DNA of 64,000 nt from Chromatiaceae bacterium (GTDB taxonomy: Bacteria; Pseudomonadota; Gammaproteobacteria; Chromatiales; Chromatiaceae). This document shows, piece by piece, positions 27,861-44,257 of this stretch. The stretch is taken from NCBI GenBank assembly GCA_024639005.1, contig JAHEJD010000003.1:31541-95540 (forward strand), given 5' to 3'. Under the pieces are notes generated by a model, which was given only the letters and a program-made list of their open reading frames with translations, made no database searches and was not told where the DNA came from. The position numbers and the translations under genes were made by a program. Within the stretch, counting starts at the first letter, position 1; each line of letters starts with the position of its first letter.

Positions 27861-28241
27861 CTACCCCTCTGCAGGTAACCGGTACCCTGGCTGCAGCCGC
27901 ACGCGAATACGGCTATCCACGACCTCCAGGGCCAAGGGCTCCAAAGACTGGCCCACGCAGGGGCCGCGCAAACAGTACCCGTCCTCGGGGCGAAACAGAG
28001 CGCCGTGGATCGCACACTGTATGAAGCTGTTGTCGAGATCGAGAAATTGATTGGGCAGCCATTCGAGCGGCGCGCCAGTATGTGGGCAGCGATTGCGATA
28101 GGCCGCCAAGATCCCGCCTTTGCGGACTACGAACAGGCGCTGTGGCGGCTGCGCGCCCAGCATCAACTCAAAGCCACGCGACCCCGGGTCGGCGATATCA
28201 TCAAGGTCACAGAGTTCGTAGCATGACGCAGTGGTGCTCAC
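27861..28241 (-). CDS. Rieske 2Fe-2S domain protein
   Basis: 126 residues. The cluster ligands are complete: CPHTGAPLEW (Cys-x-His) and CAIHGALFRPEDGYC (Cys-x2-His), with a downstream GPCVGQSLEPLALEV block as in stand-alone Rieske ferredoxins and NirD-like proteins. No signal peptide, so it is cytoplasmic. It starts at a GTG whose bases overlap the TGA of the preceding large coiled-coil gene, so the two are translationally coupled. It is a one-electron carrier or a sensor; its partner enzyme is not evident. Confidence 0.88.
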   Translation of the reverse strand: MSTTASCYELCDLDDIADPGSRGFELMLGAQPPQRLFVVRKGGILAAYRNRCPHTGAPLEWLPNQFLDLDNSFIQCAIHGALFRPEDGYCLRGPCVGQSLEPLALEVVDSRIRVRLQPGYRLPAEG

Positions 28242-31200
28242 TGACCGAGCTGTTTCAGCTGATTCAACAGAACATTGAGCAGATCCTCGTTGCCCATCAC
28301 GATGGCGATTGCCCCCAGCAGCAGCACCAGCAATGCGGCACCGGCCAGTCCCGCCAGCCAGCGACGGGGCTTGGCCACATTGGCCATTCCAATCGGCCGA
28401 CTGCTCGGCCGCAGACGCTCGTCGCGCAAGTCCGTAACCTCCGCGTCTTCCTGCACGCGGATCAACGCCTGCTGCAGTTGATCGCGGGCCTTTTCTGCCT
28501 CACCTCGGCTCGCCAATGCCTCGTCGGCCTCGGTCTGCGCCTTCTCGAGTTCACGACGCATCTCGTCGAGCTGGCGATTCACATCCTCCAGACCGTCTTC
28601 GAGCATATGCTGCGCCTGCTCGGCCCCGGTGAGTTCCCGCTGGCGCTCACCGAGTGACGACTCCAGGGTCTCGATGCGCTGCCGCATCACCTCGTAGGAT
28701 ATCGCCTCACGACCATCGGCCTGCTGCAGCCGGCGTTGCTGCGTCTCCGCGGCTGCGAGCTGTTCTCGCATCTGGGCCACATCGCCGATCGCCCGATCCC
28801 GCACCATCTCGAGTTCTGCCCGCAGCGCGATGAGTTCCGATGCATTGTCGTCGGGTTGACCCGAACGGGCCTGGCCGGCACCTTCGGCGATAACGCCCCT
28901 CAACTCTTCGACTTCACTGTCGCGCATCGCAACATCCGCCAGCAGCGCGTCCCGCTGTTCGCGCAGCGCCTGCTCGTCGCCCTTGTCACTGGCTGCGAGT
29001 TGCAGAGTCTCACGCTCCGCACTCGCCGCTTTCAATGCTTCGCTAAGTTCGGCCTGCTCCGCGCGCGCGGTTGCCAGCGCATGCTCACGTTCCTCAAGCC
29101 GCTGCTTGATTTCCAGCAACTCTGCGCGCAGCCCCTCCATGGCCTGTTCGCCACCCGACGCCTGTTCACCAAGCTGCGACTGCAGGGAGTCGTTTTCTGC
29201 GCGCAATTGCTCCAGTGCTGTTTCCATCCTTTCCGCGACCTGCTGTGCCTGTTGGTCAGCGGCAAAGAACGTCTGTTCCGAGCTGGCACGGACTTCCTCG
29301 GCCTCGGCAATGGCGGCGTCCAGGCGCCGCTGTAGATCCTCGACCTGCCGCTGCGCCTGGTCCCGTCCGGCATCGGCAGTCGCCAGTGCCGCCTGTTGAT
29401 CACCCGCCTGTTGGCTCGCGTCCTGCAAGCCAGCTTCCAGTTCACCGATCCGCGCGTTGGCCTGCTGCAGCGCCTCCAACCGGTCCTCGCCGGCAGCGGT
29501 GAGGCGCGACTCCAGGCCCGCATTGGCCTCCCGCAGTTGCACCAGTTCCCTGGCCGATTCCTCGGCCCCACGCTCGGCCTCCTCCAGCGCACGCTGTTGC
29601 GCCGCGAGCTGCCCTGCTGCGCCCTGCTGCGCTTCGTTCAGCAGGCCTTCAAGCTCGGCGATCCGCGCCTGCGTCTGTTCCGCTGTCTCACGTGAGGCCT
29701 GGCGCGCATCGTCGAACTCGGTCTGCAACGCAGTGTGGTCACTGCGTAGACTATCCGCCGCCGCATGGGCGGCGATCAAATCCTGCTCGGCCTTGACCTG
29801 CAGGGCCGACAGCTCTTCACGTGCCTTATCCAGTTCAGCCTGCAGCTGGCCGCTAGACTCGGCAGACTGTTCCTTGATCTGCGCGAGTGCGCGACTGGAG
29901 GCCTCCGCCGCCTCCCGCAGTTGTTCCTGCAATGCGTCGCGTTGTTCGGTCAACTGCGTCATATCGGCACGCAGCTGCTCAGCGTTCTGTCTGGCCTCTT
30001 CCTCCTGGCGGGCGAGCTGCTGTTGAAGCTCGACTACCTCTGTCTGACCGGTCTGGAGCTGATCGAGCCGGTCGGCCAGCAGCGTGCCTCTGGCGGCCTC
30101 GGCGTCGGCCTGCGCGGCCATCTTCTTCTGATAGTCCTCGAGATCCTGCCGCGCCTCTTCCAAATCCAGCTGCAACGCCGTCATCTCTTCTTTGAGTTCG
30201 CCGCGTTCACGCGCGTTTTGCTCGCGCTCCTCTTCGCGGTGCCCCAGCACCTCGTTGAGTCGTTCGGCCAACTCTTCGAGGCTGCTGTTGGCCGACTCGG
30301 CGCGCTCGCGCTCACCGATGAGTTCACGCTCGGCCTTGGCCAGCCTTGCCTGCAGCTGTTTGTCCAGACCCTCGATCTCCAGCATGCGATCACGCAGCGA
30401 GGCGCGCTCGCTCTCGACTTCATCGAGATTGCTGGTCAGCTTTTCCATCTCGGCGTAGGCCTGCTGCTGCGCAGCCAGGGCCTCACGCTTTTGCGCCTCC
30501 GTTTCAAGCAGTTTGCGGCGCGCCTGGTCCACTGCATGCCGAACGTGCTCGAGATGCTGCTGGCGTTCTGCTGCGGCACTCTCCTGATCGCGTTGGACCA
30601 GGTGCAGGCGCTCCTCGAGCTCCTTGGCCCTGCGCTCTGCCTCGCGCACCTGCTCCTGTACGATCGCAGCGTCGGCAGGCTCCATGGCAGCTTGTTCTTG
30701 CGCGGGTTCCTGCTGCGCGACAGCGGCGCTGCTGTTGCCCTTGAGCACCGAGACATCGAACCCACGCTCGGCCAGCAGGAAAGCGCCGGCCATTGCCCGG
30801 CCCCCGCTGTTGCTGTACAGCACGTAATGCCGATCCGGCGCCAGGCTCGAGGTCTGATAACGCAGCGACTCGAACGGCAGATTGATCGCGCCGGGCCGAT
30901 GCGATTCATCGAATTCGTCGCTGCTGCGCAGATCCAGCCAGACCGCGCCCTGCGCCACTTTTTTCTCCGCCGCCTTCGAATTGAGCCGCTCGAGCAGCGG
31001 GTCCTGGATCAGGTCGAGGAAATCGGCCTTGCTCAGACGCAGGACTTCACCATCCTGCAGCATACTGACCGTCGAGTTGCGTGGGGTATCCGACAGCAGG
31101 GCCTCTTCACCGAAGGCATCGCCGGGACCCAGAGTGGCGAGCTCGACGGGCCCCTTGCCGTCCCCAGCATCGCGCCTCACGACCGCGCGTCCGCTGGTCA

Positions 31201-31774
31201 GCATGTAATAGAAGTCACCGGAGTCTCCCTGGCACACCAGATCGCTGCCCTTCTCGACTTCAACCTGCTCGACACTCATCATGACCCGCTGCAGATTGGA
31301 GGCGGGCACCTGCAGCAGCACCGGCGACTGCAGCAGCATGCTCATCCAGTCATCTTCGGTGGCGGCGTCGAAATCCTTGACCTGGTAGTCGACCGTCTCG
31401 CTGCGTGCCAGCAGATCGTTCAAGCGGCGACTGTCGATACGCGCAATGCGCACAGGTGATTTGGCACGCGCGGAATAGCTCCTCGGGATCTGATGGGCTA
31501 GCGGAAAACGTGCCGTATCACTCCCCGCCTCAATCGTCTCCACCGCCTTACGACCGTTAAGCAGAGCGACGTTCCCTTTCAGCAGGTAGATATGTTCATG
31601 GTCGGTATCCCCCTGTTCGAAAAGCATTTTTCCCTTGCCTAAAGACTCGAATCGGACCTCGTCGAGGAGTTCGCCAAGAGCCTCTTCCGGCAGGGTATGC
31701 AGCGGCACCAAGGCGCGCAGGCGCGCCGTTCCCTCATCGCGCGGATTGTCTGTCGTACGAGTGGCTGTATCCAT
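28238..31774 (-). CDS. dual cyclic-nucleotide/pseudo-rhodanese/coiled-coil membrane protein
   Basis: 1178 residues from the ATG at 31774 (an alternative ATG at 31795 adds seven). Residues about 20-130 form a first, divergent cyclic-nucleotide-binding fold; about 148-265 a second with a recognisable phosphate-binding cassette (PGDAFGEEALLSDTPRNSTV, keeping the Glu and Arg). Residues about 275-350 are a rhodanese domain (WLDLRSSDEFDESHRPGAIN), but the active-site loop reads YSNSGGRA: Ser321 stands where the catalytic Cys should be. Residues about 360-1110 are an uninterrupted Glu/Gln/Ala/Arg-rich coiled coil. A single helix near the C-terminus (WLAGLAGAALLVLLLGAIAIVMG) anchors it. It is coupled by a 4-base overlap to the Rieske gene. 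Inference: a filamentous or membrane-tethered sensor; real function unknown. Confidence 0.85.
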   Translation of the reverse strand: MDTATRTTDNPRDEGTARLRALVPLHTLPEEALGELLDEVRFESLGKGKMLFEQGDTDHEHIYLLKGNVALLNGRKAVETIEAGSDTARFPLAHQIPRSYSARAKSPVRIARIDSRRLNDLLARSETVDYQVKDFDAATEDDWMSMLLQSPVLLQVPASNLQRVMMSVEQVEVEKGSDLVCQGDSGDFYYMLTSGRAVVRRDAGDGKGPVELATLGPGDAFGEEALLSDTPRNSTVSMLQDGEVLRLSKADFLDLIQDPLLERLNSKAAEKKVAQGAVWLDLRSSDEFDESHRPGAINLPFESLRYQTSSLAPDRHYVLYSNSGGRAMAGAFLLAERGFDVSVLKGNSSAAVAQQEPAQEQAAMEPADAAIVQEQVREAERRAKELEERLHLVQRDQESAAAERQQHLEHVRHAVDQARRKLLETEAQKREALAAQQQAYAEMEKLTSNLDEVESERASLRDRMLEIEGLDKQLQARLAKAERELIGERERAESANSSLEELAERLNEVLGHREEEREQNARERGELKEEMTALQLDLEEARQDLEDYQKKMAAQADAEAARGTLLADRLDQLQTGQTEVVELQQQLARQEEEARQNAEQLRADMTQLTEQRDALQEQLREAAEASSRALAQIKEQSAESSGQLQAELDKAREELSALQVKAEQDLIAAHAAADSLRSDHTALQTEFDDARQASRETAEQTQARIAELEGLLNEAQQGAAGQLAAQQRALEEAERGAEESARELVQLREANAGLESRLTAAGEDRLEALQQANARIGELEAGLQDASQQAGDQQAALATADAGRDQAQRQVEDLQRRLDAAIAEAEEVRASSEQTFFAADQQAQQVAERMETALEQLRAENDSLQSQLGEQASGGEQAMEGLRAELLEIKQRLEEREHALATARAEQAELSEALKAASAERETLQLAASDKGDEQALREQRDALLADVAMRDSEVEELRGVIAEGAGQARSGQPDDNASELIALRAELEMVRDRAIGDVAQMREQLAAAETQQRRLQQADGREAISYEVMRQRIETLESSLGERQRELTGAEQAQHMLEDGLEDVNRQLDEMRRELEKAQTEADEALASRGEAEKARDQLQQALIRVQEDAEVTDLRDERLRPSSRPIGMANVAKPRRWLAGLAGAALLVLLLGAIAIVMGNEDLLNVLLNQLKQLGQ

Positions 31775-35943: not shown

Positions 35944-38217
35944 TCACGCACGCCGGTCGGCGGGAAACTGAGTGACATTATCGAACGGCACTCTGCTGCG
36001 GTTGGCCTTTTGCGACGGCTTACCCATCAGATACCCCTGGCCGCGTGCGAAGCCGGCAGCGCGCGCTGCATCCAGAATGGCATCGTCCTCGATGCCCTCG
36101 GCGACCAGCTGATGCCCCGAATCGCGAATCATCTGGGCCAGGTGAGTAACCATATTGCGCTGCGTCTCATCCTGCAGCCCCTGGACGAGGGTGATGTCGA
36201 ACTTGACGACGTCGACCGGCATGCTGGCGAGGTAGCGCACCGAAGAATAACCGCTGCCGAAGTCATCCAGTGCGATCTCAAACCCCCGTTGCCGTAGCTC
36301 GGTCAGATTGTCATTGGCAAGTCCGATCTGGGTGATCAACGCCGTCTCCGTTACCTCGAGCATCACCCGGTAGTCTTTCAGAAACGCCTGGAATCCGCTC
36401 AACCAGGTGCACACCTGCTCATGCACGACCGTCGGCCCAGACAGATTGATCGAGACCCCGGTGCCAGGCTGCAACCTGCCCTCACGCAGATCCGTCAGCA
36501 CGCGGCCTATCGCGGCCCGGTCCAGTTCGACTTCGAGGCGGCGCGCCTCTACCACGGGAAAGATATTCGACGGCTGAATCAGCTCTCCGTCTTGGTGTAT
36601 GCGCACCAGCGCCTCATAGTGGCAGATAGTGCCGTCGTTCAGATCGACGATCGGCTGATAGTGCATCGTCAATCCCGTACCGTAGATCACGGCATCGTAT
36701 ACCGCCATGTTGACCCAACTCGAGAACAGGCCCTCGGAATCGCGAGCCAATGCCTCGGTGAACATCACGACACTGGCGTGACCCGGGCGCTTCGCGCGGA
36801 ACATCGCAACATCCGCCTTCCACTGCAGGGTCTGCAGGTCGTCGAGATCATCGACCCGCGCATTCGCCAGCCCGGCACTGATTCGCAGGGGCTCGCGAAT
36901 CCCCAGTTTGCCGAAATCATAGCCGACGATCTTTTCATGACAGCGCTCTGCAATACGCAGGGCCGATGACTTGTCGCAGTCGAGCAATACCACCGCAAAC
37001 TCATCGCCACCAATTCGGAAGAGTTCTTCACCGCGGCGCAACACGGAGTTGATACGGCTGGCGATAACCTTGAGAACCTGATCGCCGATGCTGTGGCCAT
37101 AAGAGTCGTTGAGTGCCTTGAAGTGGTTGACGTCGAACAGGGCGAAGCAGACGCCCAGGTCTCTGTCGCCCAGGACCTGAGGCAGGTTCTGCATGAACTC
37201 ATCGAAGGCACGTCTGTTCTTTGCACCCGTCAGTGCATCGTGGTGCGCCATCGCCCAGAGTTCCTGGCTCTTCTCCTCGAGGCTGGTATGCACATCGGTC
37301 AGCTGACCCTGGTACACGTTCAACGATTCGCGGATTTTCTCCATCTCGGCGATCGGCAATACCCCCCCCAGCGAGTCGAGCATCAGGCCGCCCGGGCTGT
37401 CTTTCAGCCGATCGATATGCGCCGATATCGCGCGTAGCGGACGCGCGATCAACAACACCAGGGCGGGGAACAGCATCAGCGCAAATACCCCCAAGATCAC
37501 GCTCAGGTTCAGGATCGCGCCCGACAGCATCGCGGACACCGCCTCGACCATCGGATTGTCGCGCAATTCAAACTGCACCGCAGATTGCAGCTCCGGCCAG
37601 GTAAGGCTCGTCCCGTTGCCGCGGGCAAACTCGATGGTGCGTGGGTTCAAGTAGCGATACGCATGCCGCTCGCGCATCTGATCGACGAAGCGAATACGCA
37701 TGCCCACATAGCCCCGCGGCCCCTGACCGATTGCACCGCTGCGCCCGAAAACCGGTCGAAAGACCAGCAAGGTCGGTTCGCTCGAGGAATAATCGACATA
37801 GGCAGGAGGAGGCGGTGCAGCAACCTGGTGCGGCATCGCCTTGTGGCCCAGCTCGGCCAACGCGAGGCCCTCGCGATCATAGACCTCGGCGTCGACCACC
37901 TCGCGCGGCAGATAATCGGAATTCTGCAGGCGCTGATCGCGCCAGAAGGCGTAGTGGCGCGGCGACCGCAGCTGTTGGCCGACCTCTTCCCATGCGGCGA
38001 ACCGCTCGACCGTGCCCTCGGCATCCTGACGAAGGTAGTCCATGACCTCGCCGATCTCTTCGCGTGCAGCCGCCAGACTGGTGGCCTCCATTTCACCGCG
38101 GACGCGCTGGAACTCGCTGTAGGTGAAGGCGCCGTAGCCCAAGAAGGCGAGCAGCACCAGACCGACCATGAAGACTGCGTAGCTGCTGATGGACAAGCCA
38201 CGTTGTGCCCTATCCAT
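35944..38217 (-). CDS. membrane diguanylate cyclase/phosphodiesterase (GGDEF-EAL)
   Basis: 757 residues. Two membrane helices (YAVFMVGLVLLAFLGYGAFTY and a second near 235-255, LSVILGVFALMLFPALVLLI) bracket an extracytoplasmic sensor region, followed by a HAMP-like segment, a GGDEF domain with intact RIGGDEFAVV and an EAL domain with intact YEALVRI, DDFGSGYSSVRYL and the EGIE motif. Both active sites look complete, so it can potentially both make and break cyclic di-GMP. The ATG overlaps the hydrolase stop by 8 bases, so the two are co-translated. A c-di-GMP effector (PilZ protein) occurs at 15.6 kb. Confidence 0.92.
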   Translation of the reverse strand: MDRAQRGLSISSYAVFMVGLVLLAFLGYGAFTYSEFQRVRGEMEATSLAAAREEIGEVMDYLRQDAEGTVERFAAWEEVGQQLRSPRHYAFWRDQRLQNSDYLPREVVDAEVYDREGLALAELGHKAMPHQVAAPPPPAYVDYSSSEPTLLVFRPVFGRSGAIGQGPRGYVGMRIRFVDQMRERHAYRYLNPRTIEFARGNGTSLTWPELQSAVQFELRDNPMVEAVSAMLSGAILNLSVILGVFALMLFPALVLLIARPLRAISAHIDRLKDSPGGLMLDSLGGVLPIAEMEKIRESLNVYQGQLTDVHTSLEEKSQELWAMAHHDALTGAKNRRAFDEFMQNLPQVLGDRDLGVCFALFDVNHFKALNDSYGHSIGDQVLKVIASRINSVLRRGEELFRIGGDEFAVVLLDCDKSSALRIAERCHEKIVGYDFGKLGIREPLRISAGLANARVDDLDDLQTLQWKADVAMFRAKRPGHASVVMFTEALARDSEGLFSSWVNMAVYDAVIYGTGLTMHYQPIVDLNDGTICHYEALVRIHQDGELIQPSNIFPVVEARRLEVELDRAAIGRVLTDLREGRLQPGTGVSINLSGPTVVHEQVCTWLSGFQAFLKDYRVMLEVTETALITQIGLANDNLTELRQRGFEIALDDFGSGYSSVRYLASMPVDVVKFDITLVQGLQDETQRNMVTHLAQMIRDSGHQLVAEGIEDDAILDAARAAGFARGQGYLMGKPSQKANRSRVPFDNVTQFPADRRA

Positions 38218-42253: not shown

Positions 42254-44257
42254 TTATTTGAACAGCTTCGACTTGTCGACCAGGTCCTTGTGGGCGCGCT
42301 TGAAGCAGTTCCAGGTCTTGGTCTCTTTGTCGTAAACGGAGTTTACAAAGCAGTGCCAGTTTTCTTCGTCGATGAAGTTCTTGTCCATGCGATAGTAGAA
42401 GCCTGGATAGCGGGTTTCCTCACGAAACTGAATATGTTTCATATGGGCTTCCGCCGTCAGAACGCGGTGGTAATTCTCCCACGCACGCAGCAGCTCGTGA
42501 AGATCCTTGGCACGCATCTCTAGCGCGTCTTCCTTCAGCATTTCAAGCTTCTGCTCGGCCAGATATAGCATATGCTCATTGGTGGTGTAGTAAGTCGACA
42601 CACCCGCGACGTACTCGTCCATGATTTTCTGCAGACGGAACTGCAGCATACGCGGCGTGATGTAGTTAGGGTTGACGTCGATCGCGGTCGAGTAGTCCTT
42701 GTGCTCGAGGAAGTTGCGCACCGGACGGTAGATCTCTTCGATCAGTTCGTCGACCGTGGTATCGAGTTCCGGCTGATGGTCTGTGCTGTCCATCACGAAC
42801 TTGACCATCGACTTGGCACACATACGCCCCTCGGCATGAGAGCCGGACGAAAACTTGTGGCCGGAGGCACCCACGCCGTCACCGGCTGTGAACAGACCCT
42901 TGACAGTGGTCATGCCGCGGTAACCCCAGTTCCAGCCTTGCGGGAGGTGGCTCGGGATCCTGTCCCTGTCGGGATGCTCTTCGGAGGTCGGCGCGCCGAC
43001 GTCGGTCGGACCCGATGCCCAGATGCCACAGCAGCCCGAGTGCGAGCCGAGCAGGTAGGGCTCGGTCGGCATCAGTTCGGAGTTCTTCTTCTCCGGCTCG
43101 ATGTTCTCACCGGCCCAGATACCACACTGCCCGACACACATGTCCAGGAAGTCTTCCCAGGCCTCGGCCTCGAGGTGCTTGACCTCGCGCGGCGAAAGCG
43201 TATCACGCAGGTTCGCCAGCGCGGTGACGGTGTCAATCCAGATCGGACCGCGACCCTCGCGCATTTCCTTCAGCATCAGGTGGTTGCGCAGGCAGGCAGC
43301 AGGCACTCTGGTCTGGCCGTACGGGGGATAGTCCTTCAGCAGTTCCTTGTTGGTCTCCAGGTAGACGTCGCCGTACGCATTGGTGGACTTTGCCTTAAAC
43401 AACAGGAACCAAGCACCGACCGGACCGTAACCATCTTTGAAGCGGGTCGGCACAAAGCGGTTCTCCATCATAGTTAGCTCGGCACCGGCCTCGGCGGCCA
43501 TCGCATAGGTGGAACCGGCGTTCCACACTGGGTACCAGGCGCGGCCCAGGCCTTCACCGACGGATCGAGGACGAAAGATGTTCACACAACCGCCGGCGAC
43601 CAGCAGGATGGCCTTGGTCCGGTAGACGAACAGCTTGTGCTCGCGAATCGAGAAACCGACCGCGCCGGCGATACGGTTCTTGTCATTCTTGTCGTTGATC
43701 AGCCTGACAATAAACACATGCTCCTGGATACGCTCGCCACCCAGGGCCTTCTTTGCCGCCTCGGCGACGATCCACTTGTAGGACTCGCCGTTGATCATGA
43801 TCTGCCATCTGCCCGTGCGGACCGGCTTGCCACCGTCCTTTAGCGCCGTCATGTCTTTCGAACCGTCGTGACGCTCGCCGGTCTCGTCGGTCTTCCAGAT
43901 CGGCAGGCCCCACTCTTCGAACAGGTGCACCGACTCGTCGACGTGACGCGCCAGGTCATATGTCAGGTCGTCGCGGGTGATACCCATTAGGTCATTGGAA
44001 ATCATGCGGGCGTGATCCGCCGGGTCCTGTTCCGGGCCGATATACGTGTTGATAGCGGACAGACCCTGGGCAACTGCGCCGGAACGGTCCAGCGCGGCCT
44101 TGTCGACCAGCTTCACCTTGATGTCAACGCCCTGCGCTTTAGCAGCCTCGAGCCACGGGCCAATCTCGTAGCCGGCACCACAGGCAGCCATGCCGCCGCC
44201 AACGATCAGTATATCCACCGCTTCTTGGACGACGTCGGGTTTACCGAATTCAGCCAT
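42254..44257 (-). CDS. aprA: adenylylsulfate reductase alpha subunit AprA
   Basis: 667 residues, normal length. FAD-binding N-terminus (VDILIVGGGMAACGAGYEIG), QGLSAINTYIGPEQDP, RTGRWQIMINGESYK, LLVAGGCVNIFRPRS and the CVGQCGIWAGENIEP and GSHSGCCGIWASGPTD blocks are diagnostic of AprA. It holds FAD and catalyses APS + 2e- to AMP + sulfite; in sulfur oxidisers the reaction runs in reverse to make APS from sulfite. Cytoplasmic heterodimer with AprB. A strong ribosome binding site (AGAGGAACG) is present 49 bases after aprB. No sat, qmo or aprM gene is in the window next to it. Confidence 0.97.
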   Translation of the reverse strand: MAEFGKPDVVQEAVDILIVGGGMAACGAGYEIGPWLEAAKAQGVDIKVKLVDKAALDRSGAVAQGLSAINTYIGPEQDPADHARMISNDLMGITRDDLTYDLARHVDESVHLFEEWGLPIWKTDETGERHDGSKDMTALKDGGKPVRTGRWQIMINGESYKWIVAEAAKKALGGERIQEHVFIVRLINDKNDKNRIAGAVGFSIREHKLFVYRTKAILLVAGGCVNIFRPRSVGEGLGRAWYPVWNAGSTYAMAAEAGAELTMMENRFVPTRFKDGYGPVGAWFLLFKAKSTNAYGDVYLETNKELLKDYPPYGQTRVPAACLRNHLMLKEMREGRGPIWIDTVTALANLRDTLSPREVKHLEAEAWEDFLDMCVGQCGIWAGENIEPEKKNSELMPTEPYLLGSHSGCCGIWASGPTDVGAPTSEEHPDRDRIPSHLPQGWNWGYRGMTTVKGLFTAGDGVGASGHKFSSGSHAEGRMCAKSMVKFVMDSTDHQPELDTTVDELIEEIYRPVRNFLEHKDYSTAIDVNPNYITPRMLQFRLQKIMDEYVAGVSTYYTTNEHMLYLAEQKLEMLKEDALEMRAKDLHELLRAWENYHRVLTAEAHMKHIQFREETRYPGFYYRMDKNFIDEENWHCFVNSVYDKETKTWNCFKRAHKDLVDKSKLFK

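Follow-up and report, generated by a model that had tools for sequence, protein, structure and literature searches.

What is a bacterial protein for when it joins two cyclic-nucleotide-binding (CNB) domains to a rhodanese without its catalytic cysteine, and then runs on through about 750 residues of coiled coil to a membrane anchor? The gene for it lies in 64,000 nucleotides of a Chromatiaceae bacterium (contig JAHEJD010000003.1 of assembly GCA_024639005.1), the whole stretch being called the window here. We favour, at a probability of roughly 0.42, the reading that this is a cyclic AMP (cAMP)-responsive, tail-anchored cytoplasmic scaffold or tether whose pseudo-rhodanese would serve as a binding module, and that it derives from a transmembrane protein bearing an FGE-sulfatase-like domain. 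An initial annotation made from the letters alone had proposed this order of two nucleotide domains, rhodanese, coil and anchor, and Pfam, periodicity and hydropathy bear it out. The features are as follows.

28238 to 31774, minus strand: the whole gene, CNB-CNB-pseudorhodanese-coiled coil-transmembrane, 1178 residues (open reading frame and Pfam; homologues in every genus member)
31403 to 31645, minus strand: CNB1, degenerate, without the phosphate-binding Glu (PF00027 match G000:C50:62943-63185)
31004 to 31264, minus strand: CNB2, intact, closest to PKG and PKA-RI (PF00027; best PDB sequence matches)
31067 to 31114, minus strand: phosphate-binding cassette FGEEALLSDTPRNSTV with Glu223 and Arg232 (sequence motif in CNB2)
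30737 to 30967, minus strand: rhodanese (pseudo-rhodanese) domain (PF00581; AlphaFold2 model with a predicted local distance difference score, pLDDT, of 86)
30812 to 30814, minus strand: Ser321 codon at the catalytic Cys position (comparison with short homologues)
28421 to 30661, minus strand: coiled coil of about 750 residues, residues 372-1118 (heptad periodicity and composition)
28295 to 28351, minus strand: C-terminal transmembrane segment, residues 1142-1160 (mean hydropathy 2.63)
28241 to 28294, minus strand: 18-residue tail beyond the transmembrane segment, where relatives run on into an FGE-sulfatase-like domain (alignment with relatives)

The strand, left unstated by the initial annotation, was established here: the gene reads from an ATG at 31774 to a TGA stop at 28238. 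Another in-frame ATG lies 7 codons upstream, but it is unlikely to be the true start since alignments of homologues begin at 31774. A domain search of both nucleotide folds returns two PF00027 stretches over the cut-off (whole-protein E 7.5e-30, 103.2 bits against 27.5), and PF00581 covers residues 270-346 (E 1e-11, 45.6 bits against 22.2). The window's genus consists of nine members, all metagenome-assembled genomes. The matching architecture is found in 9/9 of them (contig ends interrupt some copies) and in many further genera, so by sequence comparison a chance origin is excluded. Searching 93 related genomes and scanning GTDB contigs, with copies removed, gave 125 distinct CNB-CNB-rhodanese proteins, and on this survey the window protein belongs to a gammaproteobacterial family.

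Two forms make up this family. Long coiled-coil forms, the window protein among them, sit at a syntenic locus with an HU-like gene, a retropepsin-like gene, gamma-glutamyltranspeptidase, pfkB, Rieske and aldo-keto reductase genes, and their carriers include Candidatus Thiodiazotropha, the Lamellibrachia and Escarpia symbionts and cultured Sedimenticola. Short forms of about 350 residues sit at another locus; in several genomes within the same family its neighbours, as read by eye, are lysS, prfB and tilS. The short genes at L071, L075-L078, L091, L097 and L098, of that same family, share a single conserved locus (cluster genes c9, c10, c12 and c13).

Rhodanese chemistry, as established, requires a loop Cys as the persulfide carrier. 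The loop in the window protein reads Y320-S321-N-S-G-G-R-A, and short homologues carry Cys at the position of Ser321. The missing cysteine, which the letters alone had suggested, is real: Ser321 is present in 9/9 members of the genus and Cys in none. The short forms have Cys in 43/43 unique sequences and the motif CxxGxR in 39/43. Among the long forms Cys is kept in 36/82 and CxxGxR in 5/82, the replacements being Gly (28), Ser (15) and Asp (3). A lack of the Cys thus characterizes the genus but not the short forms, nor 36 of the long ones. A tree built without the loop columns requires at least 5 changes of the Cys state, 3 of them forced by well-supported branches, and by that tree the Cys was lost several times inside the coiled-coil lineage. 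L091 holds two tandem diverged short copies with the odd loops CDDDND and CDNDNEC.

The domain has not decayed along with its loop residue. It is 70-78% identical to the window's within the genus, and four genus pairs give a ratio of nonsynonymous to synonymous rates (dN/dS) of about 0.10-0.11, similar to CNB1 and lower than the coil, with dS near saturation. Purifying selection in a domain without its Cys suggests that it is retained for a role other than Cys chemistry, which supports the earlier idea of a non-catalytic module.

The nucleotide domains point to what the head may sense. CNB1 lacks the GE motif in every homologue examined. In CNB2 the Glu and Arg that the initial annotation had picked out are indeed present; Glu223 and Arg232 are unvarying across a 28-sequence alignment, and the GE...R pattern is retained in 80/82 long forms. 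CNB2 is the most conserved region of the protein, at 80-83% identity within the genus against about 50% for the coil, with dN/dS of 0.03-0.12. Both sequence and fold searches give the PKG and PKA regulatory subunits as the nearest solved relatives of the tandem CNBs. In the window genome there are 22 matches to CNB domains and 4 to class III cyclases, which makes cAMP signalling plausible in this organism. Together with the conserved cassette and the similarity to PKG and PKA, these matches make it likely that CNB2 binds cAMP. A few genes upstream, at window 35944-38217 on the minus strand, is a protein with GGDEF- and EAL-type motifs (by eye) and an N-terminal transmembrane segment, so cyclic di-GMP signalling may also be encoded close by.

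In the coil (residues 372-1118) hydropathy power at 3.5 residues is 3.14, far higher than the 1.03 +/- 0.21 of 500 shuffles (maximum 1.78), with the peak at 3.55, and its 747 residues include 1 Pro. Across the genus the coil ranges in length between about 700 and 1067 residues and the head has no indels, as would be expected of a spacer. We set aside coil indels that preserve the register (7, 14, 11, 18) as evidence, because aligners favour gaps in the heptad register. A single transmembrane segment is predicted, at about 1142-1160; basic residues precede it and almost none follow, a positive-inside pattern from which we infer an N-in/C-out orientation. Hydropathy and the heptad signal agree with the membrane anchor and long tether-like coil first proposed. 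Membership in the SMC or Rad50 families is rejected: the match reaches 43 bits against a curated cut-off of 567 and is confined to the coil.

The relatives make the main addition, showing what such a protein can look like when it does not stop at the anchor. In the seven long relatives scanned with Pfam an FGE-sulfatase domain closes the chain (E 4.8e-49 to 4.7e-58), and a model built from those seven finds the domain, preceded by a transmembrane segment, in 18 distinct relatives, cultured Sedimenticola among them. It is absent from the window protein and its genus; the window chain stops 18 residues past the membrane. The window protein nonetheless shares an orthologous head, locus and transmembrane segment with the FGE-bearing family (tree, synteny and transmembrane motif), and that segment with a juxtamembrane G-x-GE(L/I) motif is common to the genus and many FGE forms. 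The full architecture looks like a transmembrane CNB-pseudorhodanese-coil-transmembrane-FGE protein, truncated in the window's genus. This ending was beyond what a reader of the window could see; the anchor seen there stands.

Other lineages depart from the full form in their own ways. Three long forms (L058, L138 and L141) have the transmembrane segment and no FGE domain. The Thiodiazotropha and tubeworm clade has neither, and its chains mostly finish with a basic tail, for instance SLGRLFRRK; this or SLGGLFKKK is common to the C-termini of L107-L126 and L176 (Thiodiazotropha and tubeworm symbionts) and is perhaps a peripheral membrane anchor. At the same locus one genome (G019) has a headless coil and FGE-sulfatase protein of 628 residues (L180 5762-7648, plus strand), followed by pfkB and Rieske genes; a short CNB-CNB-rhodanese is found elsewhere in that genome. 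By this example, head and tail are separable modules. The nearest solved relative of the FGE domain is PvdO. In copper-dependent FGE the catalytic cysteines sit in the C-terminal RGG stretch; that stretch aligns without Cys in these relatives, which makes them unlikely to be sulfatase activators.

The reading we prefer puts these parts together as follows. The head, with its degenerate CNB1, intact CNB2 and dead rhodanese, would bind cAMP through CNB2, and the pseudo-rhodanese would offer a protein- or ligand-binding surface to a partner. The coil, as a dimer with a straight length of about 110 nm, would space the head from a single inner-membrane segment. In relatives the chain continues into the FGE/PvdO-like domain, predicted to lie beyond the membrane, which suggests an ancestral design that coupled a cytoplasmic cAMP-sensing head to a periplasmic domain across the membrane. 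The window's genus is without the outer domain and would retain the cytoplasmic tether alone. More doubtful is the wider proposal of a giant transmembrane family with a cytoplasmic cAMP-binding head, a retired sulfurtransferase, a coil of 100-250 nm, a transmembrane segment and a periplasmic FGE/PvdO-like domain, shaped by lineage-specific losses. If it is true, sulfur-oxidising bacteria and animal symbionts use the family to link their envelope to cyclic-nucleotide state, the outer domain having been lost in the window's genus and both it and the transmembrane segment in the Thiodiazotropha and tubeworm symbionts.

Several points weigh against our reading. The association of loop state with the coil is not phylogenetically independent. 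Because the tree shows just two switches between long and short, gaining a coil and losing the loop do not amount to an independent correlation; an independent-pairs test of the two has 1-2 usable pairs and no power, and the Fisher p = 2.8e-22 for loop state against length takes no account of relatedness and does not serve as an evolutionary test. The near saturation of dS makes the dN/dS figures rough. The positive-inside argument is built on few residues. The AlphaFold2 model of the head (predicted template modelling score, pTM, 0.61) places the individual domains and does not fix their arrangement relative to one another. Finally, that the FGE domain was lost, and not gained later in other lineages, is argued from parsimony, with 9 changes for its presence on a partly unresolved tree.

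Of the other explanations, the one that survives best is a fibre or cytoskeleton-like structural coiled coil, on which CNB and rhodanese would be mere folded caps with no nucleotide sensing. The coil does make up most of the mass, and the Ca. Thiodiazotropha and tubeworm versions (1349-1905 residues) do without a transmembrane segment and mostly have a basic tail. However, folded caps would not be expected to include the most conserved region of the protein with its phosphate cassette retained, and we consider this explanation unlikely.

Somewhat less likely again is that the protein is the redox partner of its neighbour, forming with it a membrane-tethered electron-transfer or Fe-S-sensing complex from a two-gene operon. 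The neighbour is this gene.

27861 to 28241, minus strand: Rieske [2Fe-2S] protein gene (PF00355, E 1.7e-10)

Its GTG start overlaps the stop of the CNB gene by 4 nt (GTGA), just as the coupling claimed for the two genes implied, and its CxH and CxxH ligand pairs are unvarying in relatives. Direct linkage, by this overlap or close spacing, is found in 7/9 genus members (G000, G002, G003, G004, G005, G006 and G008), and a genome of another family (G072) likewise has a 4-nt overlap. Within the family the Rieske gene co-occurs with the long form at 15/26 against 5/32 (p = 0.002), or 9/18 against 5/32 counted by genus (p = 0.02), a weak association at the level of genomes. On the other side, the search in the genus left G001 and G007 without a Rieske match, although G007 carries the long gene, and in the Sedimenticola isolates no Rieske of this type was found adjoining the long form. 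Thiodiazotropha and several further genera have a pfkB-type gene separating the two. G091, from another gammaproteobacterial family, has no CNB gene at the locus; there pfkB and the Rieske gene share a 4-nt overlap next to an HU gene. This makes the adjacency look inherited: the Rieske gene is probably part of an older locus and separable from the CNB gene, and in the window's genus it probably came to adjoin the CNB gene secondarily, as would follow if the pfkB gene between them had been deleted. The linkage is conserved in most of the genus and at one gene's distance beyond it; as a strict partnership it is weakened by G091, G007 and Sedimenticola. At L183 4548-6636, in another gammaproteobacterial family, an HU-like gene, pfkB and a Rieske gene with a 4-nt overlap stand together with no CNB gene, which may represent an older state of the locus.

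There is little to recommend the view that the protein is a decaying relic of a transmembrane signalling protein. Repeated loss of the Cys and the CxxGxR loop in long forms, and the lack of an FGE domain or transmembrane segment in several lineages, are what shedding of parts would produce, but reading frames in the genus are intact wherever contigs allow and the head domains, rhodanese included, are under purifying selection. Least probable is an active sulfurtransferase or persulfide sensor working through Ser321 or another residue, since 9/9 genus members lack Cys at 321, even though the loop is otherwise near canonical (SNSGGRA against CDTGRRS) and the AlphaFold2 model fits persulfide-reductase-type rhodanese structures with a root-mean-square deviation of 0.9-2.0 for the best matches.

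A cAMP-responsive tether of this kind would be made of familiar parts. The free-standing gammaproteobacterial CNB-CNB-rhodaneses have the same head in the same order, most with the CNB2 cassette kept; they differ in their catalytic Cys, their separate locus and their want of a long coil and transmembrane segment, and the literature searched holds no published description of them that we found. PKA RI and PKG (1rgs, 4z07) likewise have tandem CNBs with a canonical Glu/Arg cassette in CNB2, whereas in the window protein CNB2 alone is canonical, a rhodanese follows in place of any kinase, and identity is remote at about 20%. The single-domain or persulfide-reductase-type rhodaneses, CoADR-RHD (3ict), CoAPR (8a56) and YgaP, share the fold and loop position, with Ser in the window protein for their catalytic Cys. 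PvdO (5hha), which is FGE-sulfatase-like, resembles the C-terminal domain of many long relatives that the window protein lacks. In TBC1D23 an enzymatically inactive rhodanese domain works with golgin coiled-coil tethers (PMC7274447); that is also a non-enzymatic rhodanese in tethering, though eukaryotic and of unrelated architecture, so the likeness is an analogy only. No description of a CNB-rhodanese fusion was found in the literature searched, which leaves out most subscription papers; the sole co-mention of the two concerns two different Acinetobacter genes. As far as that literature shows, each domain is known and the architecture with its module losses is undescribed.

The interest of the protein is that a standard enzyme-type domain would have been withdrawn from catalysis repeatedly within a membrane-anchored coiled-coil protein that senses cyclic nucleotides. 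The fuller FGE-bearing architecture occurs in the culturable Sedimenticola selenatireducens and S. hydrogenitrophicus, which makes function testable, and the family is also found in lucinid clam and tubeworm symbionts, where symbiosis regulatory proteins are of interest.

Two other matters concern the window. An open frame of 564 residues at 29765-31459 on the plus strand runs opposite the coiled-coil coding sequence and seems to be a side effect of biased coil codons and not a gene. The sulfur-oxidiser role suggested at the outset fails as a specific claim: aprA is present at window 42254-44257, and 14-36 kb from the long gene in several relatives, but the long form does not track it within the family (20/26 against 26/32, p = 0.75). 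The aprA genes themselves fall into two lineages, scoring about 1100 and about 910 bits, both of which occur in, for example, G001, G006, G008, G039 and G056.

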